Of a stretch of 64,000 bases of DNA, positions 4,331-64,000 are shown piece by piece (the first letter of the stretch is position 1; each line of letters begins with the position of its first letter). This DNA is from Apostichopus japonicus (taxonomy: Eukaryota > Echinodermata > Holothuroidea > Aspidochirotida > Stichopodidae), in NCBI RefSeq assembly GCF_037975245.1, contig NC_092575.1, forward strand, positions 325,001 to 389,000. The letters are read 5' to 3'. The notes below the pieces were generated by a model. The model was given only the letters and a program-made list of their open reading frames with translations, was not told where the DNA came from and did no database searches. A program made the translations under genes and the position numbers.

Positions 4331-4577
4331 TGAAACATCCATATGTATGGTAACATTAGCTTATACTAAGCAATTAAACCAAAGTAAAATAAAACTAATA
4401 TAATCCAGTCAACTAATCCTCACGCATCAAAGGGCAGGCATCAAAAAGGCACCAAAGGGCTCTCTAACAAAAATATTTCTATACCTACAACTCAGTGGCA
4501 GAGATTTCTTGTCAGAAGTGGGGGGGGGTTGCAGGCCATTGATGAAATAAAAAGTCATAACTGCTGGCTCACTATCA

Positions 4578-4828: not shown

Positions 4829-5288
4829 TGAAACTGACCAACCATATGTACACTTTTACCTGAGAACCAAGTTTTTTCCAAATACTTTTTTTCTCATCTA
4901 TAACCTTTTTGAAGATTGTCACCAGTCACACATCATGTTCGACTTCATCACATATCCTGTGGATCATTGCTTTTGTAGGTGATTCTTCATCACGGCCCAC
5001 AATATCCGTCAGCCCCACTGTTCAGAATTTGAAAATTCACAATTCTCGTGAATAAATTCACTTCAAAACATACCCATAATGTTGCACAAAATATCATCTA
5101 TGGACAACCGATATAGAAAAACCTCCTTCAAACCCTAACAGACGGGTCAAAATTGCACGAGTATGATGAAGAATGTTGGTTAGGGAATTTTCGAAAATTC
5201 AGACGGCTACTAAAAAATTTCGTTGAAGGAAATAAAAATATACCAGATATTTCCGAAACCGAACACTACACACATCGACAGTTTTGAG

Positions 5289-38995: not shown

Positions 38996-39359
38996 ATGAG
39001 GATTGGAAAGGTCAACGAGTGAACTGGATTTAATATGATAAAACACTGTATCTGTTGTGTGGTGAATGCAGTTTGTTATCAAATGCAAACAAATTTTACT
39101 TTTGTGTATGGTAGTGATCATGTAGTCTTACTACACTTACCCAGTACAGTGTTTGTATATGACTGCTCTATATAGTGCAGCCCTACAGTAAGTATAATTT
39201 ACACTGTTCTAATATCTGACATTGATGAGTCATGATGTTAAGTGTTGATTATATTATCAGAATGTATCAGCCTCACATCTCTCCCTTATGGGCTAGAGAT
39301 GTATGTATTTACTGTGTGTTGCAACATGATCAAACGTTCCATAAGAAAGAATTTTTATG
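38996..39359 (+). other. Probable 3' UTR of the Rab-like gene
   Basis: Unique sequence from the stop codon to the 37-bp array. No near polyadenylation hexamer was seen; the first clear AATAAA downstream is at 42051-42056, beyond the array. Confidence 0.4.
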
Positions 39360-41190
39360 TAGGTTATTACAACCATCCCCATAACGTATCCTACTGATGG
39401 TTATTACAACCATCCTCATAACATACCCTGCTGTACGTTATTACAACCATCCTCATAACGTATCCTACTCTAGGTTATTACAACCATCCCCATAACGTAT
39501 CCTACTGTACGTTATTACAACCATCCTAATAATGTTTCCTACTGTAGGTTATTACAACCATCCTCATAACATACCCCACTGTATGTTATTACAACCATCC
39601 TCATAACATATCCTACTGTAGGTTATCACAACCATCCTAATAATGTTTCCTACTGTAGGTTATTACAACCATCCTCATAACATACCCCACTGTACGTTAT
39701 TACAACCATCCTCATAACATACCCCACTGTACATTATTACAACCATCCTCATAACATATCCTACTGTAGGTTATTACAACCATCCTCATAACATATCACT
39801 GTAGGTTATTACAACCATCCTCATGATGTATCCTACTGTAGGTTATTACAACCATCCTCATAACATACCCTACTGTACGTTATTACAACCATCCTAATAA
39901 TGTTTCCTACTGTAGGTTATTACAACCATCCTCATAACATACCCCACTGTACATTATTACAACCATCCTCATAACATATCCTACTGTAGGTTATTACAAC
40001 CATCCTCATGATGTATCCTACTGTAGGTTATTACAACCATCCTCATGACATATCCTACTGTAGGTTATTACAACCATCCTCATAACATACCCTACTGTAC
40101 GTTATTACAACCATCCTCATAATGTTTCCTACTGTAGGTTATTACAACCATCCTCATAACATACCCTACTGTACGTTATTACAACCATCCTCATAACATA
40201 TCCTACTGTAGGTTATCACAACCATCCTCATAACATATCACTGTAGGTTATTACAACCATCCCCATAACGTATATATCCTACTGATGGTTATTACAACCA
40301 TCCTCATAACATATCCTACTGTAGGTTATTACAACCATCCTCATAACATATCACTGTAGGTTATTACAACCATCCTCATAACATACCCTACTGTACGTTA
40401 TTACAACCATCCTCATAACATATCACTGTAGGTTATTACAACCATCCCCATAACGTATATATCCTACTGATGGTTATTACAACCATCCTCATAACATATC
40501 CTACTGTAGGTTATTACAACCATCCTCATAACATATCACTGTAGGTTATTACAACCATCCTCATAACATACCCTACTGTACGTTATTACAACCATCCTCA
40601 TAATGTTTCCTACTGTAGGTTATTACAACCATCCTCATAACATACCCTACTGTACGTTATTACAACCATCCTCATAACATATCCTACTGTAGGTTATTAC
40701 AACCATCCTCATAACATATCACTGTAGGTTATTACAACCATCCCCATAACGTATATATCCTACTGATGGTTATTACAACCATCCTCATAACATATCCTAC
40801 TGTAGGTTATTACAACCATCCTCATGATGTATCCTACTGTAGGTTATTACAACCATCCTCATAACATATCACTGTAGGTTATTACAACCATCCCCATAAC
40901 GTATATATATCCTACTGATGGTTATTACAACCATCCTCATGATGTATCCTACTGTAGGTTATTACAACCATCCTCATGACATATCCTACTGTAGGTTATT
41001 ACAACCATCCTCATAACATATCACTGTAGGTTATTACAACCATCCCCATAACGTATATATCCTACTGATGGTTATTACAACCATCCTCATAACATATCCT
41101 ACTGTAGTTATTACAACCATCCTCATAACATATCCTACTCTAGGTTATTACAACCATCCCCATAACGTATCCTACTGTAGGTTATTGCAA
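39360..41190. repeat. 37-bp tandem array, ~1.8 kb
   Basis: Roughly 50 copies of TTATTACAACCATCCTCATA followed by ACATATCCTACTGTAGG. Variable positions include CCCCATAACGTA, CTAATAATGTTTCC, CATGATGTATCC and ACATACCC(C/T)AC. A composite block with CGTATATATCCTACTGATGG recurs at least four times between 40258 and 41070, showing amplification of multi-unit blocks. It lies just after the Rab-like stop. Confidence 0.94.
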
Positions 41191-42254
41191 CTCTGGAGGT
41201 AATTAAATGGCACAGTTGTAAGCTGATTGGCTGATGAAAATGATTTTTCTGTTGCAGACAACTTACTGTAACTGCTGGTTATCTAATCAACCCACTGAGC
41301 TGAGCAGTGATACCACTGTGTAACATCCAAGATGGTAGTTAGATGCCACTTGTGACTATTTATAGAACTTGCTGAGCACTATTGATATTGCATGAACTAT
41401 CGGCAGTTCCTTACTAGCAAGCAAGGATAGAAGATTCCTTAACACGATATGTTCTTAGCTCGGGACTAGTTTGCCTTGGGCAGAACTAATAACGTTTATA
41501 CATTCCTTTCAAAATACATTTCATGAAATGCCAAAAGGACTTTGAAACATTGATTTCAAGCCTGTAATCAATTTAAGTGAATATTTAAGTTATTTATGAT
41601 TATTCAGCATGTGTTTAGAACAGTATTATGATCAACTTAAGTTTAAAGATACATAAGAAACTATAATTATCTTTCCCATTTTGTGTGTTGCTTTATTTAT
41701 ATTGTGCAATTGTTTTATTTTCTCTTCTAAAACTAATCCTTCCTAAGACAAGCATTTTTCTTGCCTTTAACTTTTCTTTTATTCTACCTTAAAATCTATT
41801 GTCAATATTCTGCACAGCTGTAATGTCATTCACCAATGTAAGCTTTTACTGTACTCTACATATGTAGCCTACACATTCATCCACAACAAATTTGTCTTTG
41901 TATTTAACTGTAAATGTTAGCAGATTTATCACTTCATGTAAAGTGAAATTCACATGTTATTATTCATCACTGATTTGTACAACTTAAACAAATTGAAGAT
42001 GTATTAGTGAGTTATAGCGAGTATGAGCTTGGCCTGTTCCAGGGAAGTTTAATAAAGATGTATATAAGTGTTGCCAGTAAGCAGTGCAAGATTGATTAAT
42101 GGTTATCTTCTGGGAAGATTACTGACTTAGTGTGAATCCTAGATAGATTCCAGTACTAGTTAGAACCTAGATAGATTCCTAGATAGAACCTAGACAGAAC
42201 CTAGATAGAAACCTAGATAGATTCCAGTACTAGTTGATATTACTACACAACATA
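41191..42254. other. Intergenic; possible distal 3' UTR with AATAAA
   Basis: AATAAA at 42051-42056 could serve the plus-strand Rab-like transcript. A short GATAGATTCCTAGATAGAAC repeat lies at about 42120-42235. No coding exon was recognised. Confidence 0.4.
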
Positions 42255-42261
42255 AAGCTTC

Positions 42262-42880
42262 CTAAACTGTGATCAGCAGTAAGATGCAAAATATATATAC
42301 AATGTATATATTGCTGATAGACTTAACTACTGATACTGTGATCTGCAGTAAGATGCAAAATATATATTGCTGATAGACTTAACTACTGACACTGTGATCT
42401 GCAGTAAGATGCAAAATATATATTGCTGATAGACTTAACTACTGATACTGTGATCTGCAGTAAGATACAAAATATATATTGCTGATAGACTTAACTACTG
42501 ATACTGTGATCTGCAGTAAGATGCAAAATATATATTGCTGATAGACTTAACTACTGATACTGTGATCTGCAGTAAGATGTAAAATATATATTGCTGATAG
42601 ACTAAATTACTGATACTGTTATCTGCAGTTAGATGCAAACTATATATTGCTGATAGAGTACACTACTAATACTGTGATCTGTTTATCTGTAGTAAGATGC
42701 AAAATATATATTGCTGATAGAGTAAACTACTGATACTGTGATCTGCGGTAAGATGCAAAATATATATTGCTGATAGACTAGCTACTTATACTGTGATCTG
42801 CAGTTATATTCAAAATATATATATTGCTGATAGACTTACTATCTACTAATACTGTTATCTGCAGTGAGATGCAACATACT
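42262..42880. repeat. 56-bp tandem array
   Basis: About eleven copies of GATCTGCAGTAAGATGCAAA followed by ATATATATTGCTGATAGACT. Copies are more diverged towards 42600-42880. Confidence 0.9.
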
Positions 42881-43786
42881 GCCAATATAGAGTAACAATT
42901 ACCTACTGTACATCATGATATGCAGAAAGATACACATCAGCTTTAATTACATGTTATGATTTGAAGAAACTAGAAAGAGACTGAAACCAGTGTCATAGTT
43001 AAGCATATATGCTTAAGGGCCAGTGTCATGTTTCTACTACCTTAAGTCTGTGTGGACTTTAGTGTGACGGAACACTATTAAATCTGTTATATCATCGAAA
43101 GGAAATCAAATTTGTCACAGATTTTACTCAGTTTATCTCTTCATATAAACCAATCATTATGGTTTTGTTTTATCCTTTAAACTGTTTAAACTTTTAATAT
43201 TTGTTGTTTTCATTCCAATCCTTAAAGTCTTCCCTTGGTAGATGTAGCCCCTTGAACAGAACATCCACAGAACAAGTATAATTTTTCCATTTTATAATAA
43301 TATTACAATGCACAATGTGTCCGCTGCTTAATGTTGCATCCATCCATGCACGGTATACTTATTGAATATTTGGTAACTTAAAGCATGGTTTGGTTACAGG
43401 AGAAACTGCCTGATATAGTAAATATGTTTGATATTAAAAGTTTATGTTAACAAGATCCATGTGAACATGCAGTAAATGATCAGGAGGGAATACGCAAGAG
43501 TTAGATCTCTGTTGATAATACATGCAACAGGAGGTTGTGGAGAGCCATAAGCTTGAGAGGTAAATGCAACTTATAATGTTTGTCATGTTCAAATATGCAG
43601 TGTATTGAAAACAATAAATTGTTGGTCTTTCAAGTGGATGTGATTATTCTTACTTGTTTTTACTTATTCCATATTTTATTGAATATAACACAAACCTGCC
43701 TCCAACTATCTCAGTACATGAAAATCGTGGTCATGAACAAAATAAACAGTTTCAGGATTCTCAGCAAGACTGATAATTTGATCTAG
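42881..43786. other. Intergenic, nothing recognised
   Basis: AT-rich spacer between two arrays with an AATAAA near 43612. No gene was recognised. Confidence 0.4.
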
Positions 43787-44522
43787 GTTGGAATTACCCA
43801 ATCAGACTCCTATAGGATAGACCTTAGATACTACACACTGCCACTGAACCAAGGACTTAGCCAATCAGACTCCTATAGGATAGACCTTAGATACTACACA
43901 CTGTCACTGAACCAAGGAATTACCCAATCAGACTCCTATAGGATAGACCTTAGATACCACACACTGCCACTGAACCAAGGAATTACCCAATCAGACTCCT
44001 ATAGGATAGACCTTAGATACTACACACTGTCACTGAACCAAGGAATTACCCAATCAGACTCCTATAGGATAGACCTTAGATACTACACACTGCCACTGAA
44101 CCAAGGAATTACCCAATCAGACTCCTATAGGATAGACCTTAGATACTACACACTGCCACTGAACCAAGGAATTACCCAATCAGACTCCTATAGGATAGAC
44201 CTTAGATACTACACACTGTCACTGAACCAAGGAATTACCCAATCAGACTCCTATAGGATAGACCTTAGTTACTACAAGCTGCCACTGAACCAAGGACTTA
44301 GCCAATCAGACTCCTATAGGATAGACCTTAGATACTACACACTGCCACTGAACCAAGGACTTACCCAATCAGACTCCTATAGGATAGACCTTAGATACTA
44401 CACACTGCCACTGAACCAAGGAATTACCCAATCAGACTCCTATAGTATAGACCTTAGATACTACAAGCTGTCACTGAACCAAGGACTAAGCCAATCAGAC
44501 TCCTATAGGATAGACCTTAGCT
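43787..44522. repeat. 63-bp tandem array
   Basis: About twelve highly similar copies of CCAATCAGACTCCTATAGGA then TAGACCTTAGATACTACACA; TACCCAATCA recurs at 43921 and 43984. Variation is limited to a few positions (GCCACTG or GTCACTG, GAATTACC or GACTTAGCC), so amplification looks recent. Confidence 0.94.
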
Positions 44523-45394: not shown

Positions 45395-45457
45395 ATGATA
45401 TATTATAAACAGAATCCTAACCTTAAATATTTGTGCAATTACAATTAAAATTCAATT

Positions 45458-45578
45458 AAAATGTACAACATCTGACATAAACATGTACAATATCTGACAT
45501 TAACATGTACAATACCTGACATGAGCATGTAGAATAACTGACATGAGCATGTACAATACCTGACATGAGCATGTTCAA
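45458..45578. repeat. 22-bp tandem repeat in the TPC 3' UTR
   Basis: Five or six copies of ACATGTACAATACCTGACAT plus two bases; starts at 45481 and 45503 differ by 22. Directly beyond the TPC stop codon. Confidence 0.85.
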
Positions 45579-45603: not shown

Positions 45604-47746
45604 TCACAACACTGTTGGTGGTACATCAGCATCATCTTCTTTGTTGTGATCTCCATTAAGAACAGTTCTTCTCTCCATATTGTATTCATCAGGACCATTC
45701 TCTATTGGTTCACTTTCATTGTTATCTTCTTTCCTGTTTTCTGAAACAACATCGTTATTAATTCCTGTTTCAACATCTTCAGAACTGTTCTCAGACCTAG
45801 CCTCAACCTCAGCTTCAACTTCAAACCTTGTTGCATCTTCACTGATCCCACCATCCTCCATGGATTCTGTTCTCTCATCCTCCTGTTCATTGTTTATCTG
45901 TTGGATGTTTCTCAGATTTGGAGACTGTTCATTCAACTCTGGTATGTGATTTGGATATCCCCCCGTGTTATCCTGGAAGGGTACCCTGGTGAGGAGGGGG
46001 CTGTCCCTAGCAGGGGGAGTTACAGCACACACTGTGGTAAGACTCTGCCTACTCATCTCTCTTACCAAGAAACGACGGAGTTCCTTACGTTCCTGTAAAT
46101 CTGAGTCTCGAATCCACTCCTGCAAACAATGTGAAAATGTTGTTGACTGATTTACTATTTCCAAATAGATTATGATTGCATGTAAGGAACTGTATAACTG
46201 TAAGGATGTAACAACAGAAAATATGTGCCCAGTGAGGTAAGTAGTGGAGTAAGACCTATATTAATACTGTATAACTGTAAGGATGTGTCAACAGAATATA
46301 TGTGCCCAGTGAGGTAAGTAGTGGAGTAAGACCTATATTAATATCATAGGAAAGTGTCATCATCTTCAAAACAGGAACAGACAGCCGTTAGCAATAACCT
46401 AAATCAATAAAAAATAATTACCTTTTATTTCCCCTTGAAACTGAGTTTCATCATCGTTACTTTACCAGTTTTAACCATAGCTAAATGTCTAACAATTCTG
46501 TCCAAAGTATTAAATTTTTTGCAGTTAGACAAAATTAACACCAAATCACAACTTCAGATCCCAGTACCAGGAAAAAGAATTTTAATATTCTGCACAGACC
46601 TAACTGGTGTCATTGAAGTTTGGACAAGGTAGCTGACTGAAGCAAAATAATGTTATGTTACTATTACAATTACAATTATTATTATTAAGAGTTATTAAGA
46701 GTATTAAAGTATTTAGAATATGAAACTTACCTCAACTTCTCTGGCATACATAGTTTTACTTAAGTCTGCCTTTGTCCTTGGTCTTGCACCTTTAAACCGT
46801 AAGCTTTGCTGGAAGGGAATAATATAGAGAAACTGTTAAAACCAAGAATAGTGCTTTTGATATGAAACTATAACACTAATTCAGTCAAAGGAGCAAATCT
46901 ACACAATTCTTTAATAGAAAAGGAAAAATGATCATAATGGAATTAGTTATGTTTGAGCCACATGCAGTCAGTGCTGTCACTGTAATGATAGTGTTCATAT
47001 CTCACAAATACTCAGCAAAATGAAACAAAAATGTTAGCAAACTGCTTATTCACTAAAGAGCCTATGTAAGAGAATGTGTAAAAGTAAGAGGGCCTGCTAG
47101 GATTGAACCGCCAGGCCCTCTTACGTTTACAAATACACACCAAGCCAGAGATTTTCACTCATAGCTTCTTTGATCACTCTAAGTTCATTCTTGTGTGCTG
47201 TGCTGTGCTGGGGATATTACAAAACTTGGCTAGTAGGCCTGTCTCACCTTTTTCACTGGGTAGACTTATGGTTCTCTATGAGACTTTATGGTTGGACCAC
47301 AACTGGGTGGTATTTCAAATTAAGCCAGGTTGAAGGAGAGAAATCATGCGGTTTAAAGAACATGCCTATGATTACTGAGAATTGAGCAATTAATCAGAGT
47401 TTACAAAGTGGAGTGTATAAATAAATGGGAATTGGAGTGTTAGAAATATAAAACCATGCAACTTGGTTACCATGGAAATACACATTGACAGTATTCCAAA
47501 ACTGCAAGATGTCATGCATTTATGTGAAAGGATGTGAGTGTGGATGGCTAAATTAAAAATGTTGTCTTTATAATGTGATATTAAAACCCTAATATCTAAG
47601 AACATCTGTCATATGGTTACTTACAGTTTGACTCAGTCTAAGGTCATTTTTTAATATTGTCAGCTGCAAATCAGATGCTGTTTCCTTGAACATGGATTGC
47701 ATATCTCCATAATATAGGTTTACATTCACTTCAATGGCTGTGTCAG
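45604..47746 (-). CDS. TPCN1: TPC exons for the cytosolic C-terminal tail
   Basis: Exons 47625-47746, 46731-46808 and 45604-46119. LRFKGARPRTKADLSKTMYA then REVEEWIRDSDLQERKELRR aligns with the TPC1 tail ([21 protein letters not shown]). The last exon encodes 171 residues, of which about the final 125 are acidic and low-complexity (rich in E, D, N, S), ending DADVPPTVL before TGA/TAG-type stop at 45604. Human TPC1, as recalled, has a much shorter tail after the same point. Confidence 0.88.
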
Positions 47747-50700
47747 CTGTGAAATAAAATGAAATCAATCTTTTATACTACAAGACATGTAGACTATTGA
47801 CAATCTTAACATCCCTTGAAAAGACAAAACTTTTAATACAATCAAGCATCACCTAAGTACAGCACACATATTTTGTTATCTGTGTTAACAAACTATTAGA
47901 ATAAACCTAACTGGGTCATCCATCCTGACATAAAGTGAGTTGTGTTATTTGTGTTAACAAACCAATTTTGAATGTAGCTAACACTGTCAACTATCATGAT
48001 TAAAAATGAGTTGTGTTATTTGTGTCAACAAACCAATTTAGAATGTAGCTAACACTGTCAACTATTCTGACTAAAAGTGAGTTTTACTTTATAATTCTCT
48101 TTGGCCAGAAACACATAAGACAATGGAAGAGGACATACTGTAAATAAGAGTTACATTGAAGTGAGTTTTCTCTCAATGAATGATTGTTGCTTTAAAGTAG
48201 CTTAGGTTATGTTCTTCTTTGATATATTGTCAATGATAATGAATGATTGTTGCTTTAAAGTAGCTTAGGTTATGTTCTTCTTTGATATTGTCAATGATAA
48301 TGAATTATTGTTGCTTTAAAGTAGCTTAGGTTATGTTCTTCTTTGATATTGTCAATGATAATGAATTATTGTTGCTTTAAAGTAGCTTAGGTTATGTTCT
48401 TCTTTGATATTGTCAATGATAATGAATTATTGTTGCTTTAAAGTAGCTTAGGTTATGTTCTTCTTTGATATTGTCAATGATAATGAATTATTGTTGCTTT
48501 AAAGTAGCTTAGGTTATGTTCTTCTTTGATATATTGTCAATGATAATGAATTATTGTTGCTTTAAAGTAGCTTAGGTTATGTTCTTCTTTGATATTGTCA
48601 TTGATATGAATGATTCCTTGTGTGACTGATAATAAATTGAACTCTCTTTGTAAGCAACACAACCACAAATCAGTTTCTGTACACAATATTACAATCCACA
48701 ACATCAAAATATCAAGCTTTATAAAAATCTGTTTTAAAGTAGCTACATACTCTGAAAACATTCTCATGAGACCAGGTTTATAACCTTGCATATAGCTGTT
48801 CATGGAGGATCCAGGGTTCTATCCTAGCACATACATCACTTTTGAATGATGACAAATTCTATCACACATTCACTAAAGCCATTAATTACTGAGGATATAA
48901 TGACATATACGGCACCTTCAATAATCCGGGCAGCATCACTCTGTGCAAACTGCATTCTAAAGAGGAAGGCTTCCAGAACATATGCAACAGTTACCGTAAC
49001 AACAACCTGAAAAGATGAAAATATAGAATGGTGCAGTCACAAGCTGATAAGCAGAGGGCAGCAGCTTCAAACTTACAGAAGGAAACTCCAGCAGGTTGTA
49101 ACCAAATTTATATTACTCGATGAACATAATGTGAGTTTCTTTCCAGACAAAATGACTGACAAATTTAAAATAAATGAAATTCATCCTAAAACTCACCATA
49201 CTAGAGAGGTAAAAGATGATGAAATAAAGAATACTCCATTCACTGACAGTCATAGCAATTGCATTCTGATGAATAAACAATGAATAGTAGGTTATTTATT
49301 TAGTTTTGTATAAATGAAAGTTTGTTGAGTTTACAGACAATCACAGCAGTACTTACTGTTGCAAGATATACTGACCTGTATATATGTATATGATAGATAT
49401 ACAATGTCTGTTGTGGCACTAAAGTACATGACATACTGACCTGTATATATGTTTGATCGATATACAATGTCTGTTGTTGCACTAAAGTACATGACATACT
49501 GACCTGTATATATGTATATGATAGATATACAATGTCTGTTGTGGCACCAAAGTACATGGCATACTGACCTGTATATATGTTTGATAGATATACAATGTCT
49601 GTTGTGGCACTAAAGTACATGACATACTGACCTGTATATATGTATGATAGATATACAATGTCTGTTGTGGCACCAAAGTACATGACATACTGACCTGTAT
49701 ATATGTATATGATAGATATACAATGTCTGTTGTGGCACCAAAGTACATGGCATACTGACCTGTATATATGTTTTATAGATATACAATGTCTGTTGTGGCA
49801 CCAAAGTACATGACATACTGACCTGTATATATGTATGATAGATATACAATGTCTGTTGTGGCACCAAAGTACATGACATACTGACCTGTATATATGTATA
49901 TGATAGATATACAATGTCTGTTGTGGCACCAAAGTACATGGCATACTGACCTGTATATATGTTTTATAGATATACAATGTCTGTTGTGGCACCAAAGTAC
50001 ATGACATACTGACCTGTATACATGTTTGATAGATATACAATGTCTGTTGTGGCACTAAAGTACATGACATACTGACCTGTATATATGTATATGATAGATA
50101 TACAATGTCTGTTGTGGCACCAAAGTACATGACATACTGACCTGTATATATGTATGATAGATATACAATGTCTGTTGTGGCACCAAAGTACATGACATAC
50201 TGACCTGTATATATGTATATGATAGATATACAATGTCTGTTGTGGCACCAAAGTACATGGCATACTGACCTGTATATATGTTTTATAGATATACAATGTC
50301 TGTTGTGGCACTAAAGTACATGACATACTGACCTGTATACATGTTTGATAGATATACAATGTCTGTTGTGGCACTAAAGTACATGACATACTGACCTGTA
50401 TATATGTATATGATAGATATACAATGTCTGTTGTGGCACCAAAGTACATGACATACTGACCTGTATATATGTATATGATAGATATACAATGTCTGTTGTG
50501 GCACTAAAGTACATGGCATACTGACCTGTATATATGTTTTATAGATATACAATGTCTGTTGTGGCACTAAAGTACAGCCTAATAACGTCTCTGTACTCCT
50601 GCCTGCATGGCTGGATGTGAAAAATTACACCACAGCTACATTATAAACTCTATTGGAGCATCAATTAAAAGATTAAGTAATGGACAGTGAACACAACTTA

Positions 50701-53700
50701 CCATAATAACATGCCAATTATTGCCAACTGTTAGTTCAAACAGAGTTACTGTTGATGAAATACAACATTCAAGTATTTAGAAACAAGCACCCAGATATTG
50801 AAGATAAATAAATTTGTGTAACCATAGCAACCTGACCTAAATATCCTTCTGTGAGTTAATGAATTATCAGATCATGTTTCAATCTCTAATATCATCAATT
50901 CTGCTAACAACAAAATATGGTCTGTTGGTGAAAATATTCAATCAAGAAATATATGACAGAATTAAGTAGAATTTATTTTTTAAGGCTTAATTTACCTTTC
51001 ATGTTTACTGGTTATGTTCTGCTTCTGGTTGTTCCGTACAGTGCACATATACTTATGTCCAGTTTGTGAAGAATACCATTAACTTGTAAATGTAATGTAT
51101 GAATTTGATGCAACATATAGTTTCTGTAACACACAATTACAAAACAAACAAAATATACAAAAAAATCAAATTGAATGACACAAAATACTATTTTGCAGTT
51201 TTCAGCCAAGGGACAAAGACAACCAACGTTTGACGTGTGCAGTGTGTGATACTGATTGTATGATAAACACAACAAATGAGAGACTATAACATTAGGATAT
51301 AACATTAGGACTGCTTTATACTATTCCTACAACACCAATCTTACCGTAAGCATTTAGTATGTGTTCAAAGTTGTTGAGGTAAAAGTACAAGTGATATGAG
51401 GAGCTGTTACTATAAAACTCTTCAAGAGTAGTATTTCTGTCGAAGAAGAAGACAAAAGGAGAGTAAAAATATAAATTGCCAGCTGAATGAAAGTTACACT
51501 CTCTGAATCATGTTTCCATTATGAATCTAGATTCATGTTATGGCAGGTTACTGGGTTGATAATAAAACTGTTCCTCTGCGATTCATAAACATGGCATGGT
51601 TAATATATTTAATATTATGTAATATCTCTAAGAATATTACATGTTTAACAAAAGAACATGTTGAGATGTAGACATAGCTACATGAAATGATGGCGTTGTC
51701 CATTATGTCGTATTCCATTTGTATTTTATACAAACACCCTGCTTTTACAAACTTGCAAGAAATGTAAGCCATTATACCTTCAACATAGTAATTAAACACA
51801 AATACGCTTATAATTTGACAAATGTTTTAATTGTAAAACTCTTTGAGTGGAAGAAAGTGGTATTATTGTCTTGAGATGAAAAAATGTTTTAGTCAGCAAA
51901 AACTTCAAAAGAAATGAATAAGCTAACAAGTCATGCCAATCTACTACTAACAAACTATCTTGCAGACGTAATACAGAAAATCTACTTACTGACAGCAATT
52001 TTCGAGTTTGGCCTCAGAGAAAAGTTCCATTCCCACAATGGCATAGAAGTAGTACATGACTACAATAACAAGACCCATGCTGAAATAAATAGCATTAGAA
52101 TAGCAGATTAGTATGGGCCATGCAGACCCATAAATAATAGCATTACAATAGCAGATCAGTATGGGCCATGCAGACCCTTGCTGAAATAAATAGAACAAGA
52201 ATAGCAGATTAGTATGGGCCATGCAGACCCATAAATAATAGCATTACAATATCAGATTAGTATGGGCCATGCAGACCCATGCTGAAATAAATAGAACAAG
52301 AATAGCAGATTAGTATGGGCCATGCAGACCCATAAATAATAGCATTAGAATAGCAGATTAGTATGGGCCATGCAGACCCATAAATAATAGCATTACAATA
52401 TCAGATCAGTATGGGCCATGCAGACCCATGCTGAAATAAATAGCATTAGAATAGCAGATTAGTATGGGCCATGCAGACCCATAAATAATAGCATTAGAAT
52501 AGCAGATTAGTATGGGCCATGCAGACCCATAAATAATAGCATTAGAATAGCAGATTAGTATGGGCCATGCAGACCCATAAATAATAGCATTACAATAGCA
52601 GATCAGTATGGGCCATGCAGACCCATAAATAATAGCATTAGAGTAACAGATATGTATGGGCCATGCAGACCCATGCTGAAATAAATAGCATTACAATAGC
52701 AGATCAGTATGGGCCATGCAGACCCATAAATAATAGCATTAGAATATCAGATTAGTATGGGCCATGCAGACCCATAAATAATAGCATTACAATAGCAGAT
52801 CAGTATGGGCCATGCAGATCCATAAATAATAGCATTAGAGTAACAGATATGTATGGGCCATGCAGACCCATGCTGAAATAAATAGCATTAGAATAGCAGA
52901 TTAGTATGGGCCATGCAGACCCATAAATAATAGCATTAGAATAGCAGATTAGTATGGGCCATGCAGACCCATAAATAAATAGCATCGGACTAGAAAAATC
53001 ATGATACACCAATGGTAATTGGTAATCAATGGTAATCTTTACAGTGAGAGAATTCTTTTGCATGCTTCTATTTTTCAGCAAGTTTGACCCCCAATTACTA
53101 AGAAGGAAGTCAAGGGTAACAGTGGGCCCTAATTTGTAGTCACATTATTCATTCACAACCACCAAACATGGTTTACTCCTTCACATTAGACAAGAAAGTT
53201 ATGCATTTGATAGACTTTTATTACCGTAATTCAATTGATATTATTAGAATTACCTGAACATTCTGGGCATTAGTACTCTGACTGTGGCAGCAACATCCCT
53301 GTACCTCTTACGGACCTTAAACAGCCTGCAAATTAAAAAACATAAGTAAAACGGTTGAACACGAGTCAGTGACTTGACATGGTTACTGATGAAGCATTAT
53401 CTTAACTAAATTTCCTTCCCTGGTTGTATTTTGTGTTGATATTAAGCAAAACATTATTCACAGGTATCTTCATTCCTCCTACTGGGATCATTGACTTCCC
53501 TGGTTGTACTTTGTGTTGGTACTCAGCAAAACGTTATTCACAGGTATCTTAATTCCACCTACTGGGATCATTGACTTCCCTGGTTGTACTTTGTGTTGGT
53601 ACTAAGCAGAACATTATTCACAGGTATCTTCATTCCTCCTACTGGGATCATTGACTTCCCTGGTTGTACTTTGTGTTGGTACTCAGCAAAACGTTATTCA

Positions 53701-56700
53701 CAGGTATCTTCATTCCTCCTACTGGGATCATTGACTTCCCTGGTTGTACTTTGTGTTGGTACTAAGCAGAACATTATTCACAGGTATCTTAATTCCTCCT
53801 ACTGGGATCATTGACTTCCCTGGTTGTACTTTGTGTTGATATTGAGCAAAACATTATTCACAGGTATCTTCATTCCTCCTACTGGGATCATTGACTTCCC
53901 TGGTTGTACTTTGTGTTGGTACTCAGCAAAACGTTATTCACAGGTATCTTAATTCCACCTACTGGGATCATTGACTTCCCTGGTTGTACTTTGTGTTGAT
54001 ATTGAGCAAAACATTATTCACAGGTATCTTCATTCCTCCTACTGGGATCATTGACTTCCCTGGTTGTACTTTGTGTTGGTACTCAGCAAAACGTTATTCA
54101 CAGGTATCTTAATTCCACCTACTGGGATCATTGACTTCCCTGGTTGTACTTTGTGTTGGTACTAAGCAAAACATTATTCACAGGTATCTTAATTCCTCCT
54201 ACTGGGATCATTGACTTCCCTGGTTGTACTTTGTGTTGGTACTAAGCAAAACATTATTCACAGGTATCTTCATTCCACCTACTGGGATCATTGACTTCCC
54301 TGGTTGTACTTTGTGTTGGTACTGAGCAAAACATTATTCACAGGTATCTTCATTCCTCCTACTGGGATCATTGACTTCCCTGGTTGTACTTTGTGTTGAT
54401 ATTAAGCAAAACATTATTCACAGGTATCTTAATTCCTCCTACTGGGATCATTGACTTCCCTGGTTGTACTTTGTGTTGGTACTCAGCAAAACGTTATTCA
54501 CAGGTATCTTAATTCCACCTACTGGGATCATTGACTTCCCTGGTTGTACTTTGTGTTGGTACTAAGCAAAACATTATTCACAGGTATCTTCATTCCACCT
54601 ACTGGGATCATTGACTTCCCTGGTTGTACTTTGTGTTGGTACTAAGCAAAACATTATTCACAGGTATCTTAATTCCTCCTACTGGGATCATTGACTTCCC
54701 TGGTTGTACTTTGTGTTGGTACTAAGCAAAACATTATTCACAGGTATCTTCATTCCACCTACTGGGATCATTGACTTCCCTGGTTGTACTTTGTGTTGGT
54801 ACTGAGCAAAACATTGTTCACAGGTATCTTAATTCCATCTACTGGGATCATTGACTTCCCTGGTTGTACTTTGTGTTGGTACTGAGCAAAACATTATTCA
54901 CAGGTATCTTAATTCCTCCTACTGGGATCATTGACTTCCCTGGTTGTACTTTGTGTTGGTACTGAGCAAAACATTATTCACAGGTATCTTAATTCCTCTT
55001 ACTGGGATCATTGACTTCCCTGGTTGTACTCTGTGTTGGTACTGAGCAAAACATTATTCACAGGTATCTTAATTCCTCCTACTGGGATCATTGACTTCCC
55101 TGGTTGTACTCTGTGTTGATATTAAGCAAAACGTTATTCACAGGTATCTTCATTCCACCTACTGGGATCATTGACTTCCCTGGTTGTACTTTGTGTTGGT
55201 ACTAAGCAAAACATTATTCACAGGTATCTTCATTCCATCTACTGGGATCATTGACTTCCCTGGTTGTACTTTGTGTTGGTACTAAGCAAAACATTATTCA
55301 CAGGTATCTTAATTCCATCTACTGAGATCATTGACTTCCCTGGTTGTACTTTGTGTTGGTACTTAGCAAAACATTATTCACAGGTATCTTAATTCCTCCT
55401 ACTGGGATCATTGACTTCCCTGGTTGTACTTTGTGTTGGTACTGAGCAAAACATTATTCACAGGTATCTTAATTCCTCTTACTGGGATCATTGACTTCCC
55501 TGGTTGTACTTTGTGTTGGTACTGAGCAAAACATTATTCACAGGTATCTTAATTCCTCTTACTGGGATCATTGACTTCCCTGGTTGTACTTTGTGTTGGT
55601 ACTGAGCAAAACGTTTGTCACAGATATCTTCATTCCTCCTACTGGGATCATTGACTTCCCTGGTTGTACTTTGTGTTGGTACTAAGCAAAACATTATTCA
55701 CAGGTATCTTAATTCCATCTTCTGGGATCATTGACTTCCCTGGTTGTACTTTGTGTTGGTACTGAGCAGAACGTTATTCACAGGTATCTTCATTCCACCT
55801 ACTGGGATCATTGACTTCCCTGGTTGTACTTTGTGTTGGTACTGTGCAGAACGTTATTCACAGGTATCTTCATTCCATTTACTGGGATCATTGACACATT
55901 CATACCGTACATTGAATGTTTCTTTACAAATACAACATTGAAGAAAAATTGAAAACTCTCAGCATAGGTTTGTTGCTTTTCACATTCTAGAGGTTAATAA
56001 CTTACCTTAGTAAACGTAAGGGTCTTAAAATAACCACAAAGTAAAAGTTGGTGTCTACAACTTGGAAGATGATGCCTGAGATGGCGACTACTGTCACAAT
56101 GAAATCAAATCTAGGAAATAAAACAGAGGATTATGGCAGAAGAAAGGCTCTAAGTGAGATAAAGAGAAAATGTAAGGGGGGAAAAAAGGAGAAAAACTAA
56201 GGCACAATAGAGGATACAAGGATATTAATTAAAGCCTAAACTTCATGTGCAGCCCTCACATGGCAGTGCAATTTTCTATAAAGAAACATCCTGATTGTAT
56301 TTGTGTAAATCAGTACATCAGGGCTATAGGTTTGAAGGTATTAATCTGAAGATGTTTAAAAATACAACAATGAGAGGCAACCCAAAATACCAAGAGTAAC
56401 TCTGTGAAGCAGACCATAACATTTACTGTAACATTGTTTGATCTGTACCTATCTAGCAAACAGGATACCATAGATCTAGTCATATATAACACGAAGACTA
56501 CAAATGACAAAAGATTTCAGTTATTTCACAAAAGATATTCATATAAAGGGGTTTAATCTACAGAGGAAGACTTTATATAAATGTGATAAACAACCTCTCT
56601 AAATCTCAACAACATTCTCACACTTAGACATTTCGGGGAAAACTTTGAAGTTTACAATGTACATAAACATGTTCCACTAGATTATGTAAATATGTAATTT

Positions 56701-59700
56701 ACATTTTTCATTTTTGCCAGACAAATGTTGTCCATATTTGGAATAAACCAACCTTATTTACCATAGTAATTGTGAATATCTAAATAAAACTGTAGTATTG
56801 TTCAATTAAATTCTCCATAAAACCGAAGTACTTGGAAAAAGGTACAGCATGTTACTTACACATTCCATGTGTTTCCAAAATATCTTTGACATCCCAATCC
56901 AAGGATCTTCAACAGACACTCTATCCCATAAACTGCACAAAGTAAAACCATGACGAACGCTTGAATTATACTCATACTGAATTAAATTAAGTTAAACATT
57001 TTCAGGAGAAAACAAACTGTTACTCTACTTCACACATCCAATCCTATTTGAAACACTTTGTAATTTACTCCCCAATAGAATCTTTCGTTGACAAATTTCT
57101 GATAACTTTGTAACGACACCAAATCAATTGCTCTTCTCAATTTTGATAGTAATAAAAATAGTTAAAAGTCACAAATACAGGTAAAAAGTTTGACTTCATA
57201 TTAAATTAAAAATTATCTCAGTCACAGAAGCAAAGTATTGAAACATTCCATAAAAACTTGAGTATTGCTGCACAGGAAAACAGAATCAGAATTAAAAGAC
57301 TTACATGTGACAAATGCAATGTCGTACCAATGAACAACCTCTAACGTTTCCATCACTTCTTGAGCACTGCCTGTACCTGCAGATGAAACAGGAATTATTT
57401 CAAGTTACTGACAAAACAGTCAGATAGCTTCATAAAGATTATCTTGTATTTGCGATAATAATTACCACATGCAGCTATGAACAATATTTATACCAATCAT
57501 CGAACAAAAATTAATACCAACATCTGAGGGCTAGGAAATCACTTGGATATGTTTGGAAAAGCTAACATGTAATGTTGCAAACACGAAGCACAAGACAATA
57601 TCATTAATATGAATAAGGTAATAGCAGCCATGGGCACAGTAATAGCATACCCAACACAGTAACACAGCATACCGAACACAAACAGCATACTGAGAAAAAG
57701 TAATAGCATACAAGGCACAGTAACACAGCATACTGAACACAGAAATATATTATACTGAGAAAAGGTAATAGCATACTAGGCACAGTAACACAGCATACTG
57801 AACACAGAAATATATTATACTGAGAAAAGGTAATAGCATACTAGGCACAGTAACACAGCATACTGAACACAGACAGCATACTGAGAAAAGGTAATAGCAT
57901 ACAAGGCACAGTAACACAGCATACTGAACACAAACAGCATACTGAGTAAAAGTAATAGCATACAAGGCACAGTAACACAGCATACTGAACACAGAAATAT
58001 ATTATACTGAGAAAAGGTAATAGCATACAAGGCACAGTAACACAGCATACTGAACACAGAAATATATTATACTGAGAAAAGGTAATAGCATACAAGGCAC
58101 ATTAACACAGCATACTGAACACAGAAATATATTATACTGAGAAAAAGTAATAGCATACAAGGCACAGTAACACAGCATACCGAACACAAACAGCATACTG
58201 AGTAAAAGTAATAGCATACAAGGCACAGTAACACAGCATACTGAACACAGACAGCATACTGAGAAAAGGTAATAGCATACTAGGCACAGTAACACAGCAT
58301 ACTGAACACAGAAATATATTATACTGAGAAAAGGTAATAGCATACAAGGCACAGTAACACAGCATACTGAACACAGAAATATATTATACTGAGAAAAAGT
58401 AATAGCATACAAGGCACAGTAACACAGCATACTGAACACAGAAATATATTATACTGAGAAAAGGTAATAGCATACTAGGCACAGTAACACAGCATACTGA
58501 ACACAGAAATATATTATACTGAGAAAAAGTAATAGCATACAAGGCACAGTAACACAGAATACTGAACACAGAAATATATTATACTGAGAAAAGGTAATAG
58601 CATACTAGGCACAGTAACACAGCATACTGAACACAGAAATATATTATACTGAGAAAAGGTAATAAAATCCTGAGCAAAGGTAATAGCATACTGCAAGCAT
58701 ATACTGAACACATTAACATGTCATACAGGACATCCTGGTGTGACCAAGGTACATCTAACAGTTATCTGCCTGTAAAAAATGATGTGAAAATGAACCTGAG
58801 CGGAGTCCTGAGAAGGCATGGTGTAATGAAATAACAATGTTTAAATGTAAGGTCATGATAAAACAATATATGTCTTCATTCCCAGCTCAGGTAACTTGTT
58901 GACTTTTAGATGAGTAACAGTGAAAGATAACAGCATGAATAGCAATGTTAGCAATGAATGTTTTACACTCACTTTGTAAAATTGTAATGATTTTTCACAT
59001 TCTTTTCCAGATTCAGTAGGTGTATATTTGTTTAAATATTTCCATGTTGTCATCTCTACAGACGTTATTGTCAGATGAGATAATTAAAGTCTTTGTAGAT
59101 ATAATTTTATAATTTGTATAAATATCCAACACTCATGACCTTTATTATATTGATTAAACTAACACAAATCTTTGATGGCGGAGAATCCTTGATAGATCGA
59201 CCCGCCATTATTTACAATTGCTATCAGACTTCACAGAAAACATTGACTTTCTGTGAAGCTGTCTCAAGCCTCCTATCACTATAGGGCTGTGAACTATAAG
59301 AATTAAATGTTATAACAGAAATGATGAATGTTTACTTACCGGAAATTACAATAGTAGAAATGATGAAGACAGACCCATTCAATGCTATCACAGCATCTAA
59401 CAGACAAAGAAAATAAAGAGTATATAACACAACTGCTGATGATATTTGATGCATTTGATATGCACAATATCATTCAAATGAGATTACTAATAAAATCAAC
59501 TTTTAATGTATAGTGAAATAACAAGCAAGATAGGATTAAAAATTCTCTCAGTTGTGCAAAAAAAGCCACCTTTAATAGTCACATAAGAAACTAGTACTGT
59601 GATCTTGGTATATTGCAGTAATGAAAGTAATTAATACAACTTAATAGAAACAAGAACGCGGTTGAGCAAACTGAATAATTTCCAAACCAAGAAGCCAGAT

Positions 59701-62580
59701 TATGGCTTAAAGCTAAATGAAATATTATAAATGTAAATAGAATCTTGTAATCTATCAATGACTACAACTGTGCTTCAAACAATGTATATCGAGTCAATTC
59801 TTACTATTGTTCACTGGTCTGAGAATTGACAGACAAAATAATTCTCCATAATGAAGTTCATGCTTGCCATGAGCCATGGTAACATTGATGGACAAATAAC
59901 TTTTCTGTTCAGACAACACAAAGGATAAGCCCAATTGTCCAAGGACAACAAAAGACTAAACATTCTCACAAGACAACTATGAACAGCAAGGATAGGGTAA
60001 CTACATGCATTGTGAATATTTTAATTATAAGGCTAGGAATTTACTTACAAACAAGTATTTCAAAAGGCTTGAGATTGACCAAGTAGTTGATTAATCTGAA
60101 GGGTTTATCCAGAGGTGGAAACAGGCTTTCAAACCAAAGTTTTTCATCTTGTTTTGCAGTCCACTTGAGGAGGCTAACTTCGTAAATGTTAAAAAACTCA
60201 GAGAGGTTTATAAAACCTGTCCCTGATGAGTTGAGAGTTCTGAAGGCCAAGAGAACATCTCTTTTGGAGTGGTTTGATTTGTAGTACTTCATAAGGCCTA
60301 GAAAGTGAGGGAAGGAGATAAGGCCTGGATGCTGCAAAAGAAAAGTGATTCACTATAAAACTGATCAGGAAATACACCAGATGACTGTATTTATTATATA
60401 GTTTTGACTGTTAGGTTATTATCTTGTATACAATTCACGCAACAGATCTGTCTCACCTAAAGATATTGTCAGGGTCAGAGAATGCTTCCTCCGCAAATAT
60501 TTGTAAGTCTGATTAATGAGAGGAAGGTTTCATCAATCTGCCATGAAGGTGTAACTATTGAATTTGCACACTCCAGACAAGCATAAAGGAGCTAATTATC
60601 AATTAATTAAGAAGAACAATTTAATTTCTTAGTTACTTAAGGATGCTTTTTTAGTAACAGTGCAACTTTGATCTTGCCATTAAATATGTTTGAGCAGAAA
60701 CAAAACATAGTCATGGTAGGTAAATCTCAAGATCTAAGAGATAGTAAAGAGACACATAGGTATATCTCTATATATAAGAGATTGTAAAGAGACACATAGG
60801 TATATCTCTATATATAAGAGATTGTAAAGAGACACATAGGTATATCTCTAGATTGTAAAGAGACACATAGGTATATCTCAATATATAAGAGATTGTAAAG
60901 AGACACATAGGTATATCTCAATATAAGTGACACACATTAAGTGACACTCATAGGTACATCTTAATAAAGAGATAGTTAAGTGACACACATAGGTACATCT
61001 TAATGATGAGATAGTTAAGAGGGGATCTTACCATTCTGCTGCAAAGTCTTCTGAAAGCCATGGAAGCTCCAAGTCTCTTATGTAAGTACAATCTTTTAAA
61101 CTTCTCCTTCTCAACATCAGTGAAAGTGTTGTAGACTACTGCCAGTAACTGTGATGTAATACAATATGAGAAAAGATGAATTCAGGCAAGTATATCTTAG
61201 AGAACTTGAATCGCAATACAGAATAATAATTTGTATAAAATACAGACAACTGTACATCTATTGATACTAGATAATAGGCCAAGGCCTTTCAACTACCCAG
61301 ACCTTTAGGAAAGCAACATTAAAAATGGTGGTAAAATATGCTGTGAAACACAATATAGTGTGCAACACTTCACACAGTTTGTAAGGGAAACTCCATATGG
61401 TGACATTGTTATATACTATGTAACCTGATATTACTGACAACCTGATACTATCATACAAATATACAGCAATTTGTGAGTCCTAGGCAATGCTTAATGTTAT
61501 AACAGTCTACAGAACTCATTATGTATATGTTTCACTGTGTAAGCTGCATACAGAACCTTGCATGGTATGGCCTTACACTGAACACAGGATTGCATTTGGA
61601 GTGACTATCATACAACAATGTCTTATTTAAGTAGGAAATTATCTGAGCATTCTGACATTCATTTTAGCCATTGGTGGGATACAGAAAGCTAACACGTTAT
61701 ATGTACTGAATGGGAACACTACAACAGCAACAAAGCAACAACTACAACATCAGCAACACAACAACAACATCAGCAACACTACAACAACACAACTATAGCA
61801 ACACAACAACTACAACACAACATCGGCAACACTACCACAGCAACAACACAACATCGGCAACACAACAACAACATCAGCAACACTACAACAGCAACATAGC
61901 AACAACACAACATCAGCAAAACAACAACGTCAGCAACACAACAGCAACTATAGCAACACAACAACAACAACACAACATCAGCAACACTACCACAGCAACA
62001 CAGCAACAACACAACTTCAGCAACACAACAATACAACATCAGCAACACTGCCACAGCAACAACACAACATCAGCAACACAACACAACATCAGCAACACTA
62101 CAACAGCAACACCACAACATCAGCAACACAACAACAACACAACATCAGCAACACTACCACAGCAACAACACAACATCAGCAACACAACAACAGCAACATC
62201 AGTAACACTGCCACAGCAGCACAGCAACAACACAACATCAGCAACACAACTATAGCAACACAACAACACAACATCAGCAACACTACCACAGCAACAACAC
62301 AACATCAGCAACATTGCCACAGCAACAACACAACATCAGCAACACAAAAACAGCCACACAACATCAGCAACACTACAACAGCAACACAGCAACAACACAA
62401 CATCAGCAGCAATACCACAACATCAGCGACACAACGAAAGCAACTCAACAACATCAACTGAGAGCAAGGTAGAGACTTACAACATTTGTTAGAAAATAGA
62501 GCTCCAATATGAGAAAGACAATGAAAAATAAAGCCGACCATCTTGAGCTATTGTAGGCAGGCATCATGACATCGGGATAA
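45604..62580 (-). CDS. TPCN1: Two-pore cation channel (TPC), C-terminal 16 exons; 5' part outside window
   Basis: Exons 5' to 3': 62481-62580, 61032-61148, 60049-60331, 59340-59396, 57305-57376, 56860-56932, 56006-56110, 53254-53325, 51990-52079, 51345-51436, 50702-50748, 49197-49265, 48916-49006, 47625-47746, 46731-46808, 45604-46119. All are GT-AG with consistent phases; total 660 aa in window (numbered here from the first full codon). TPCs are two-domain channels of endolysosomal membranes carrying Na+/Ca2+ in response to PI(3,5)P2 or NAADP signalling. Seen: PDVMMPAY after filter I; helix IS6; LLAVVYNTF...KFKRLYLHKR linker; EF-hand-like linker; second voltage-sensor domain with R263, R266, R269; pore II with TVGNNW; IIS6; long acidic tail. 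Conserved blocks match human TPC1 best, but TPC3 is not excluded; the symbol is provisional. At least ten arrays lie in its introns. Confidence 0.93.
46190..46342. repeat. ~77-bp tandem duplication in a TPC intron
   Basis: TGTATAACTGTAAGGATGT begins two adjacent copies, both containing TGTGCCCAGTGAGGTAAGTA and GTGGAGTAAGACCTATATTA. It lies between the last two TPC exons. Confidence 0.85.
47077..47131. repeat. 20-bp inverted repeat (hairpin) in a TPC intron
   Basis: GTAAAAGTAAGAGGGCCTG (47078-47096) pairs with CAGGCCCTCTTACGTTTAC (47112-47130), with one mismatch in 19 and a further T-A pair outside. The loop is 15 bases. The GC-rich stem stands out from the AT-rich intron. Confidence 0.8.
48174..48612. 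repeat. ~61-bp tandem array in a TPC intron
   Basis: About seven nearly identical copies of TTGTTGCTTTAAAGTAGCTT followed by AGGTTATGTTCTTCTTTGAT and ATTGTCAATGATAATGAAT. Some copies have an extra AT (GATATATTG). A separate, weaker repeat containing TGAGTTGTGTTATTTGTGT is found at about 47935-48075. Confidence 0.93.
48916..52079 (-). CDS. TPCN1: TPC exons for IIS5, pore II and IIS6
   Basis: Exon 51990-52079 reads MGLVIVVMYYFYAIVGMELF (IIS5). Exon 51345-51436 holds the lumenal loop with glycosylation sequons NTT (324) and NSS (333), then YFYLNNFEHILNAY. Exon 50702-50748 holds the second filter, TLFELTVGNNWHVIM (residues 355-369), with Gly362 where human TPC1 and TPC2 have Val before the Asn pair. 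Exons 49197-49265 and 48916-49006 give EWSILYFIIFYLSSM and VVVTVTVAYVLEAFLFRM (IIS6). Confidence 0.9.
49364..50575. repeat. 61-65-bp tandem array in a TPC intron
   Basis: About 19 copies of CATACTGACCTGTATATATG, a variable GTATATGATAG / TTTGATAG / TTTTATAG / TATGATAG part, then ATATACAATGTCTGTTGTGG and CACCAAAGTACATGA. The length classes come from the variable part. The array begins about 98 bp from the acceptor of exon 49197-49265. Long frames across it are repeat artefacts. Confidence 0.94.
52080..52980. repeat. 48/53-bp array copying the acceptor of TPC exon 51990-52079
   Basis: About 18 copies of AGTATGGGCCATGCAGACCC followed by ATAAATAATAGCATTAGAAT (48 bp). Longer copies replace the junction with ATGCTGAAATAAATAGCA. 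On the minus strand the longer form reads TTTATTTCAG then CATGGGTCT, identical to the true acceptor and the first nine bases of the adjoining exon. Extra copies of this acceptor lie at about 52181, 52282, 52431, 52675 and 52872. Confidence 0.92.
53254..56932 (-). CDS. TPCN1: TPC exons for voltage-sensor helices IIS2-IIS4
   Basis: Exons 56860-56932 (YGIECLLKILGLG), 56006-56110 (FDFIVTVVAISGIIFQVV, FYFVVILRPLRLL) and 53254-53325 (LFKVRKRYRDVAATVRVLMP). Helix IIS4 reads ILRPLRLLRLFKVRKRYR, with three arginines every third residue (R263, R266, R269). Human TPC1, as recalled, has RPLQLLR here, and voltage-insensitive TPC2 lacks the third arginine. Voltage dependence is therefore plausible for this channel (inference). 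Confidence 0.88.
53410..55893. repeat. 80-bp tandem array, ~31 copies with fixed length
   Basis: Unit: CAGGTATCTTCATTCCTCCT, ACTGGGATCATTGACTTCCC, TGGTTGTACTTTGTGTTGGT, ACTAAGCAAAACATTATTCA. From 53461 to beyond 55861 every unit starts exactly 80 bases after the last, so there are no indels in about 2.4 kb. Variation is limited to a few positions (ACT(A/C/G)AGCA, AAAC(A/G)TT, (A/C)ATTCC(T/A)(C/T)CT). It lies in a TPC intron, starting about 85 bp from the acceptor of exon 53254-53325. Confidence 0.96.
57618..58690. repeat. ~65-bp tandem array in a TPC intron
   Basis: About 18 copies of GGCACAGTAACACAGCATAC followed by TGAACACAGAAATATATTAT and ACTGAGAAAAGGTAATAGCA. A shorter form has ACAAACAGCATACTGAG in place of the AAATATATTAT part. 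It lies between exons 57305-57376 and 59340-59396. Confidence 0.94.
60049..60331 (-). CDS. TPCN1: TPC exon for the EF-hand-like interdomain linker
   Basis: 94 residues (73-166). LMKYYKSNHSKRDVLLAFRT then LNSSGTGFINLSEFFNIYEV aligns with the TPC1 linker ([35 protein letters not shown]). LNSSGTGFINLSEF has EF-hand spacing but lacks several acidic ligands, so it is probably not a high-affinity calcium site. KWTAKQDEKLWFESL leads to the start of helix IIS1 (PFEILVY), which continues in exon 59340-59396. Confidence 0.9.
60720..60945. repeat. 40-bp tandem array in a TPC intron
   Basis: Five copies of GTAAAGAGACACATAGGTAT then ATCTCTATATATAAGAGATT; GACACATAGG recurs at 60751, 60791 and 60831. A related degenerate part (AGTGACACACATAGGTACAT) continues to about 61015, just before the donor side of exon 61032-61148. 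Confidence 0.88.
61032..62580 (-). CDS. TPCN1: TPC exons for end of pore I, helix IS6 and start of linker
   Basis: Exon 62481-62580 begins one base into a codon and reads YPDVMMPAYNSSRWSALFF, then IVFLILELYFLTNV. PDVMMPAY directly follows the ANN selectivity filter in human TPC1, and the rest is helix IS6. Exon 61032-61148 continues LLAVVYNTFTDVEKEKFKRL and YLHKRLGA, matching the cytosolic extension of IS6 seen in TPC1 (LLAVVFDTF, KFKSLLLHKR). The preceding exon, which should hold the filter itself, is not in the window because the 61-bp array runs to its right edge. Confidence 0.9.
61717..62460. repeat. CAA/CAG-rich array in a TPC intron
   Basis: Irregular copies of CAACAACACAACATCAGCAA with CACTACCACAG and CACTACAACAG, all in phase of three over long stretches. 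A 181-codon plus-strand frame (N, T, S, Q only) results, but it lacks any gene context. The array ends about 20 bases from the donor of TPC exon 62481-62580, which is transcribed from the other strand, where it reads GTTGTTG. Confidence 0.92.
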
Positions 62581-64000
62581 CTGTAGGGGGCAAATAGTGA
62601 TATCAAATGGTGAGTTAATAGGCATCATGACATCGGGATAACTGTAGGGGGCAAATAGTGATATCAAATGGTGAGTTAATAGGCATCATGACATCGGGAT
62701 AACTGTAGGGGGCAAATAGTAATATCAAATGGTGAGTTAATAGGCATCATGACATCGGGATAACTGTAGGGGGCAAATAGTCATATCAAATGGTGAGTTA
62801 ATAGGCATCATGACATCGGGATAACTGTAGGGGGCAAATAGTAATATCAAATGGTTAGTTAATATATAGGCATCATGACATCGGGATAACTGTAGGGGGC
62901 AAATAGTAATATCAAATGGTGAGTTAATAGGCATCATGACATCGGGATAACTGTAGGGGGCAAATAGTAATATCAAATGGTGAGTTAATAGGCATCATGA
63001 CATCGGGATAACTGTAGGGGGCAAATAGTGATATCAAATGGTTAGTTAATAGGCATCATGACATCAGGATAACTGTAGGGGGCAAATAGTAATATCAAAT
63101 GGTTAGTTAATATATAGGCATCATGACATCGGGATAACTGTAGGGGGCAAATAGTAATATCAAATGGTGAGTTAATAGGCATCATGACATCGGGATAACT
63201 GTAGGGGGCAAATAGTAATATCAAATGGTGAGTTAATAGGCATCATGACATCGGGATAACTGTAGGGGGCAAATAGTAATATCAAATGGTGAGTTAATAG
63301 GCATCATGACATCGGGATAACTGTAGGGGGCAAATAGTAATATCAAATGGTGAGTTAATAGGCATCATGACATCGGGATAACTGTAGGGGGCAAATAGTC
63401 ATATCAAATGGTGAGTTAATAGGCATCATGACATCGGGATAACTGTAGGGGGCAAATAGTCATATCAAATGGTGAGTTAATAGGCATCATGACATCGGGA
63501 TAACTGTAGGGGGCAAATAGTAATATCAAATGGTGAGTTAATAGGCATCATGACATCGGGATAACTGTAGGGGGCAAATAGTAATATCAAATGGTGAGTT
63601 AATAGGCATCATGACATCGGGATAACTGTAGGGGGCAAATAGTAATATCAAATGGTGAGTTAATAGGCATCATGACATCGGGATAACTGTAGGGGGCAAA
63701 TAGTAATATCAAATGGTGAGTTAATAGGCATCATGACATCGGGATAACTGTAGGGGGCAAATAGTCATATCAAATGGTGAGTTAATAGGCATCATGACAT
63801 CGGGATAACTGTAGGGGGCAAATAGTAATATCAAATGGTTAGTTAATATATAGGCATCATGACATCGGGATAACTGTAGGGGGCAAATAGTAATATCAAA
63901 TGGTGAGTTAATAGGCATCATGACATCGGGATAACTGTAGGGGGCAAATAGTAATATCAAATGGTGAGTTAATAGGCATCATGACATCGGGATAACTGTA
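62581..64000. repeat. 61-bp array copying the acceptor and first 22 bases of TPC exon 62481-62580
   Basis: About 23 copies of GGCATCATGACATCGGGATA, ACTGTAGGGGGCAAATAGTA, ATATCAAATGGTGAGTTAAT (61 bp; a few have an extra TATA), running past the window edge. GGCATCATGA starts recur at 62621 and 62682. On the minus strand each unit reads TTTGCCCCCTACAG then TTATCCCGATGTCATGATGC, i.e. the acceptor plus codons for PDVMM of the true exon, followed by unrelated sequence rather than the rest of the exon. Confidence 0.95.

Follow-up and report, generated by a model that had tools for sequence, protein, structure and literature searches.

How a spliceosome finds the correct start of an exon whose acceptor has been copied many times over is the question raised by a minisatellite next to a predicted TPC1 exon in the DNA analyzed here, a stretch of 64,000 nucleotides referred to as the window. 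This array (array 1; 62559–64000, minus strand) was delimited by TRF with a period of 61, 23.4 copies and 97% matches, and a 61-nt unit repeated more than 20 times at this level of likeness is not a product of chance. The initial annotation had proposed that each unit carries a splice acceptor together with the first 22 coding bases of the exon, and that exon definition is needed for correct splicing.

With regard to the host gene, the similarity of its product identifies the gene adjoining array 1 as a TPC1 orthologue. The part within the window comprises 16 exons (45604–62580, minus strand) whose joined reading frame contains no stop other than the terminal one; the model's largest internal exon measures 283 nt. 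A query joined by hand from the first 11 of the 16 exons matched TPC1 6c96, which we take to be mouse TPC1, over one 367-residue stretch (E = 2.3e-97, 329.9 bits). Among the best 60 of 135 matches, the next were multi-domain voltage-gated calcium/sodium channels (162 bits at most, in several separate stretches), followed by TPC3 6v1q (114.2 bits) and plant TPC1 (around 100 bits), and the Pfam match on this gene was Ion_trans (8.8e-36). The true exon behind array 1 (62481–62580, minus strand; 100 nt, YPDVMM...LTNV) has its acceptor at 62580 and a GTAAGT donor, with a score of 8.1, just after 62481. It encodes YPDVMMPAYNSSRW, whose counterpart in 6c96 is FPDVMMPSYSRNPW, a segment that presumably sits just after the domain-I filter; the earlier reading of the exon start as PDVMM was correct, YPDVMM aligning to FPDVMM of 6c96.

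Each unit of array 1, read on the minus strand, consists of 39 intron bases ending in CCCCCTACAG followed by TTATCCCGATGTCATGATGCCT, the first 22 bases of the TPC1 exon, which confirms the proposed content of the unit. The copy at 62641 matches the true junction at all 61 bases compared, and the sharing of the exon's first 22 bases, the point on which the initial reading could have failed, therefore holds. Within the window, 24 acceptors are present in this region, namely 23 copies and the true one at 62580, and the repeat detected by TRF reaches the last base of the window and continues past its end, in agreement with the earlier estimate of about 23 extra copies in an array going beyond the window. 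From the outermost acceptor at 63995, which the window edge shortens to TACAG, down to 62580, the acceptors follow one another in steps of 61, or of 65 in three cases with a TATA insertion. Their AG is intact in 24 out of 24 (true site included). Once the outermost copy, truncated upstream, is set aside (leaving 22 copies and the true acceptor, 23 in all), variation was confined to one of the 22 exon columns and two of the 39 intron columns, that is, column −32 (C in 19, A in 4), column −19 (T in 16, G in 4, C in 3) and exon column 7 (C in 22, T in 1). Every unit contains CTCAC or CTAAC, with the A at −31, which resembles a branch point under the consensus that we assumed, then a tract and then the acceptor. 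All 23 AGs within the array are those of the copied acceptors, with no other AG, and the tract of each unit is therefore free of AG. It is also true that all copies lie upstream of the true exon, as had been pointed out, but this is uninformative, since any tandem duplication that spans an acceptor leaves just its final copy attached to the rest of the exon.

In order to compare the true site with its copies, acceptors were scored with a T-rich model, built from 22 other acceptors of the window's genes, which may undervalue a C-rich tract such as that of the true site. The latter scored 1.94 and the 22 copies scored ranged from 0.91 to 2.19, so that acceptor strength found no support as a discriminator across these 22 copies. 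The other true acceptors scored between 1.9 and 13.1 (median 7.0; n = 22, leave-one-out), and 174 of the 984 AGs in the gene span scored at least as high as the acceptor at 62580, which, if its tract is not undervalued by the model, would lie at the weak end for the window. Predicted RNA folding gave a mean unpaired probability over the tract and AG of 0.76–0.80 for 23 acceptors, the true one having 0.79. Concealment of the copies by RNA structure found no support either in these predictions, in which three units folded no better than shuffled units (z = +0.66). The copies thus equal the true site by score and local folding and form the ladder of intact-looking acceptors that had been described.

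The remaining distinction is position, given that the last copy alone is close to a donor. No donor-like GT was found in array 1, where the best score was −3.7 compared with 1.8 to 12.9 for 23 donors of the window's genes; as previously claimed, the copies lack the exon's donor and contain nothing usable in its place, and a copy is therefore unable to form an exon alone. For the same reason, we rejected the idea that the copies of array 1 act as cassette micro-exons. Use of an upstream copy would instead lengthen the exon to 161, 222, 283, 344 nt and more, and length alone cannot decide between them and the true site, because the products of the nearest one to three copies (161, 222 and 283 nt) are not longer than the 283-nt TPC1 exon. 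A premature stop arises inside the extended exon for 23 of 23 copied acceptors, at least 67 nt before the exon end. Under the usual 50–55 nt rule for NMD, the extended transcripts would thus be expected NMD targets. The anatomy of array 1, the identity of its sites, the missing donors and the premature stops are all direct observations.

A weak acceptor helped by the donor of its exon fits exon definition, and the dependence of correct splicing on exon definition may fairly be inferred. The donor-proximal acceptor might win by distance, sequences of the exon body might help, or NMD might remove the leakage; we would place most weight on the proximal choice. The last of these options can be extended to an account in which pre-mRNA splicing chooses loosely among acceptors, the upstream copies among them, and it is clean-up by NMD, not exon definition, that keeps the mRNA pool correct, with no regulatory role for the array. 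The equality of copies and true site in score and local accessibility is compatible with it, as are the stops in all extended products and the fact that transcription reaches the copies first. However, heavy waste of this kind would be costly, and RT-PCR of a lancelet array of the same type is said, in the available text of PMC3087553, to suggest regular splicing; we consider this account unlikely.

Our preferred reading, which we hold to be probable, is that array 1 is a mirage, its minisatellite unit lying by chance across the intron/exon border, and that its copies are bystanders while the donor-proximal acceptor is used. What we infer is that the array arose by duplication and slippage, that the proximal site is chosen and that NMD operates. 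A tandem duplication with its ends 39 nt before and 22 nt after the TPC1 acceptor would have been followed by expansion, and slippage or unequal exchange would have kept the units alike. Because the body of the exon remains attached to the last copy, the array would be tolerated. Each copy would make up a complete 3' splice-site module in the pre-mRNA; as none has its own donor, the acceptor nearest the real donor of the exon would most likely be used, through exon definition and donor-proximal choice. Any splicing to an upstream copy would yield a longer exon with a premature stop, whose removal by NMD would be expected.

Array 1 is most simply understood as a by-product of very dense minisatellites. 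After merging, 67 TRF rows gave 34 arrays, with many differing unit lengths and sequences, that cover 19,771 bases, i.e., 31% of the window. Gene spans contain 15 arrays of 100 bp or longer, of which three cross a splice border (arrays 1, 2 and 3). Against the 7.6 crossings given by unrestricted random placement (P(≤3) = 0.003), border crossing is depleted, whereas placements that neither swallow an exon nor lie inside one would give 3.65 (P(≥3) = 0.76), in line with the observed three. This placement test is a crude one, as it rests on three genes with some exon edges set by eye and is confined to gene spans, stretches without a gene model (e.g., 1–9000 and 39358–44520) lying outside it. With about 3.6 crossings expected under exon-sparing placement and three seen, the capture of borders seems to be a matter of chance where tandem repeats make up 31% of the window. 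Most simply, arrays would form at any place, those disrupting exons would be lost, and those spanning a border would persist as often as chance allows. The impression that array 1 is singular was accordingly not borne out: two further border arrays are present, one of them at a donor and together at about the random-placement rate, and lancelet mirages have been published.

The second acceptor-spanning array (array 2; 52071–52985, minus strand) also belongs to TPC1 and, by comparison of TRF with the exon models, overlaps 9 nt of a 90-nt exon (51990–52079, minus strand, from the gene model). Its true acceptor scores 10.8, a value inflated by the inclusion of this acceptor in the model. In its upstream copies, TATTTCAG|CA is kept in 5 of 18 and lost in 13, and a premature stop is found for all five intact copies, at least 166 nt before the exon end. 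A high-scoring acceptor thus accompanies mostly broken copies in array 2 and a low-scoring one accompanies copies that are all intact in array 1, although these are two cases only. The third, donor-spanning array (array 3; 19660–20009, minus strand) consists of 2.9 units of 128 bp, covers 28 exon nt by TRF and copies the donor of a 135-nt exon (19982–20116, minus strand, from the gene model) in a sarcosine-oxidase-like gene (Pfam DAO, 4.9e-33; best solved relatives monomeric sarcosine oxidases, E = 1.6e-34), to which we give the presumptive name PIPOX. GTCAAG|GTATG is intact in both downstream donor copies, and their use would lead to premature stops in both cases (85 and 213 nt before the exon end). 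By the 50–55 nt rule, the extended products of arrays 2 and 3 would be expected NMD targets as well.

Other features of the window were also recorded. Within TPC1 introns, an array at 57635–58664, away from any exon, has units with TTCTCAG and GTTCAG that are acceptor-like on the gene strand, and another at 49368–50576 has 19 copies of CAGGTCAGT on the gene strand, giving a series of AG|GT junctions reminiscent of recursive splice sites, yet the preceding bases form no clear pyrimidine tract. A small 22/44-bp array (45455–45578) starts 26 nt past the TPC1 stop codon and is probably in the 3' UTR. On the plus strand, a 63-bp array at 43790–44520 lies within a 247-codon open frame and a 39-bp array at 1574–2836 within one of 318 codons; both periods are multiples of three, so the openness of the frames may mean little. 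At 11098–13002, a single 635-codon open frame matches Pfam DUF2152 (5.7e-79) and is, we assume, KIAA2013-like. No RNA families at gathering score and no tRNAs were found in the window. A 28-base word taken from array 1 had no exact match among viral and prokaryote contigs, a result of little weight for an animal sequence.

The copied acceptors might also be working decoys that take a share of splicing and give poison-extended transcripts, so that array length tunes TPC1 dosage. In line with this are the intactness of all copied acceptors in an array without other AGs, the premature stop that ends every use of a copy, and the weakness of the true acceptor (score 1.94; median of the 22 others, 7.0). 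Selection might be invoked for the conservation of all acceptors in array 1, given that 5 of 18 copies are intact in array 2, though homogenisation explains it: variation is similar in the exon part (1/22 columns) and the intron part (2/39), and nothing points to selection acting on the copies in addition to homogenisation. Added to the chance rate of border-spanning arrays and to the normal mRNAs reported for lancelet mirages, this leaves the decoy role very doubtful. We regard as still more improbable a rheostat, possibly outside lancelets, in which a ladder of at least 24 identical 3' splice-site modules, each a known distance away from the same donor, would set, through its copy number, the share of TPC1 pre-mRNA diverted to poison-extended transcripts. 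Finally, we find it scarcely credible that assembly error produced array 1 or the bulk of its copies. The units are indeed 97% alike, and one lancelet mirage is said to be aberrantly assembled in a draft genome (PMC3087553) and another, in PGBD5, to differ in copy number between two assemblies (PMC3902484). However, five variants of the intron part and a 4-bp insertion are scattered through the array, and other border arrays with different units occur in the same window; the copy number of array 1 may nevertheless be wrong even if the array is real.

Array 1 is a good natural test of exon definition. Since the copies do not differ from the true site over the splice module, a single variable in acceptor choice is singled out at this locus, namely how far the downstream donor lies and in which order the acceptors are transcribed, and junction counts along the ladder would show the reach and the leakiness of exon definition. 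The chance-level capture of borders further suggests that mirages are not single-gene curiosities but what dense minisatellites would be expected to yield.

Among known systems, recursive splice sites are serial acceptors inside one intron that need AG|GT. Array 1 likewise presents serial acceptors in one intron, but has AG|TT in every copy, and recursive splicing was rejected for all 24 modules. The Rogers model, as cited in the available part of PMC3087553, derives intron gain from tandem duplication across AG|GT. Array 1 shares with it a tandem duplication that includes splice signals, but no new intron is seen, and with AG|TT and no donor a copy alone cannot give rise to an intron or an exon. 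An intron gained by tandem duplication, which would take a spliceable duplicated donor and acceptor, was thus rejected here (best donor score, −3.7). The human internal tandem repeats of PMC2812944, which in the text available alter exon–intron structure or activate cryptic splice sites, are also minisatellites touching exon–intron structure; unlike array 1, for which an unchanged mRNA is expected, they change the transcripts of recent paralogues.

The closest relatives are the mirages of lancelets. As far as the accessible text of PMC3087553 goes, the globin mirages (named after the Adh3 gene) are minisatellite-like tandem copies of intron–exon borders, of acceptor type in BflGb6 (two haplotypes carrying 6 and 3 repeat units) and of donor type in BflGb9; AG/GT signals are kept in many, not all, copies, and a role in intron gain is proposed. 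The corresponding portion of PMC3902484 adds PGBD5 and, by citation, troponin C. Among the papers listed by our literature searches, no mirage outside lancelets appeared, which is weak evidence; if the present host is not a lancelet, the known range of mirages would be extended. Array 1 agrees with these cases in structure, its unit including an intron–exon border (39 intron and 22 exon bases), and in the retention of signals in many copies, which holds for 24/24 acceptors here, 5/18 in array 2 and 2/2 donors in array 3. Other marks of a mirage would be regular splicing of the mRNA and a copy number that varies between haplotypes or among somatic cells. Array 1 differs from the lancelet examples, as far as they are described there, in its gene and in its 24 intact acceptors against the 3 and 6 units of the BflGb6 haplotypes. 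It is therefore a striking example of a known oddity, distinguished by its greater number of perfect acceptors.
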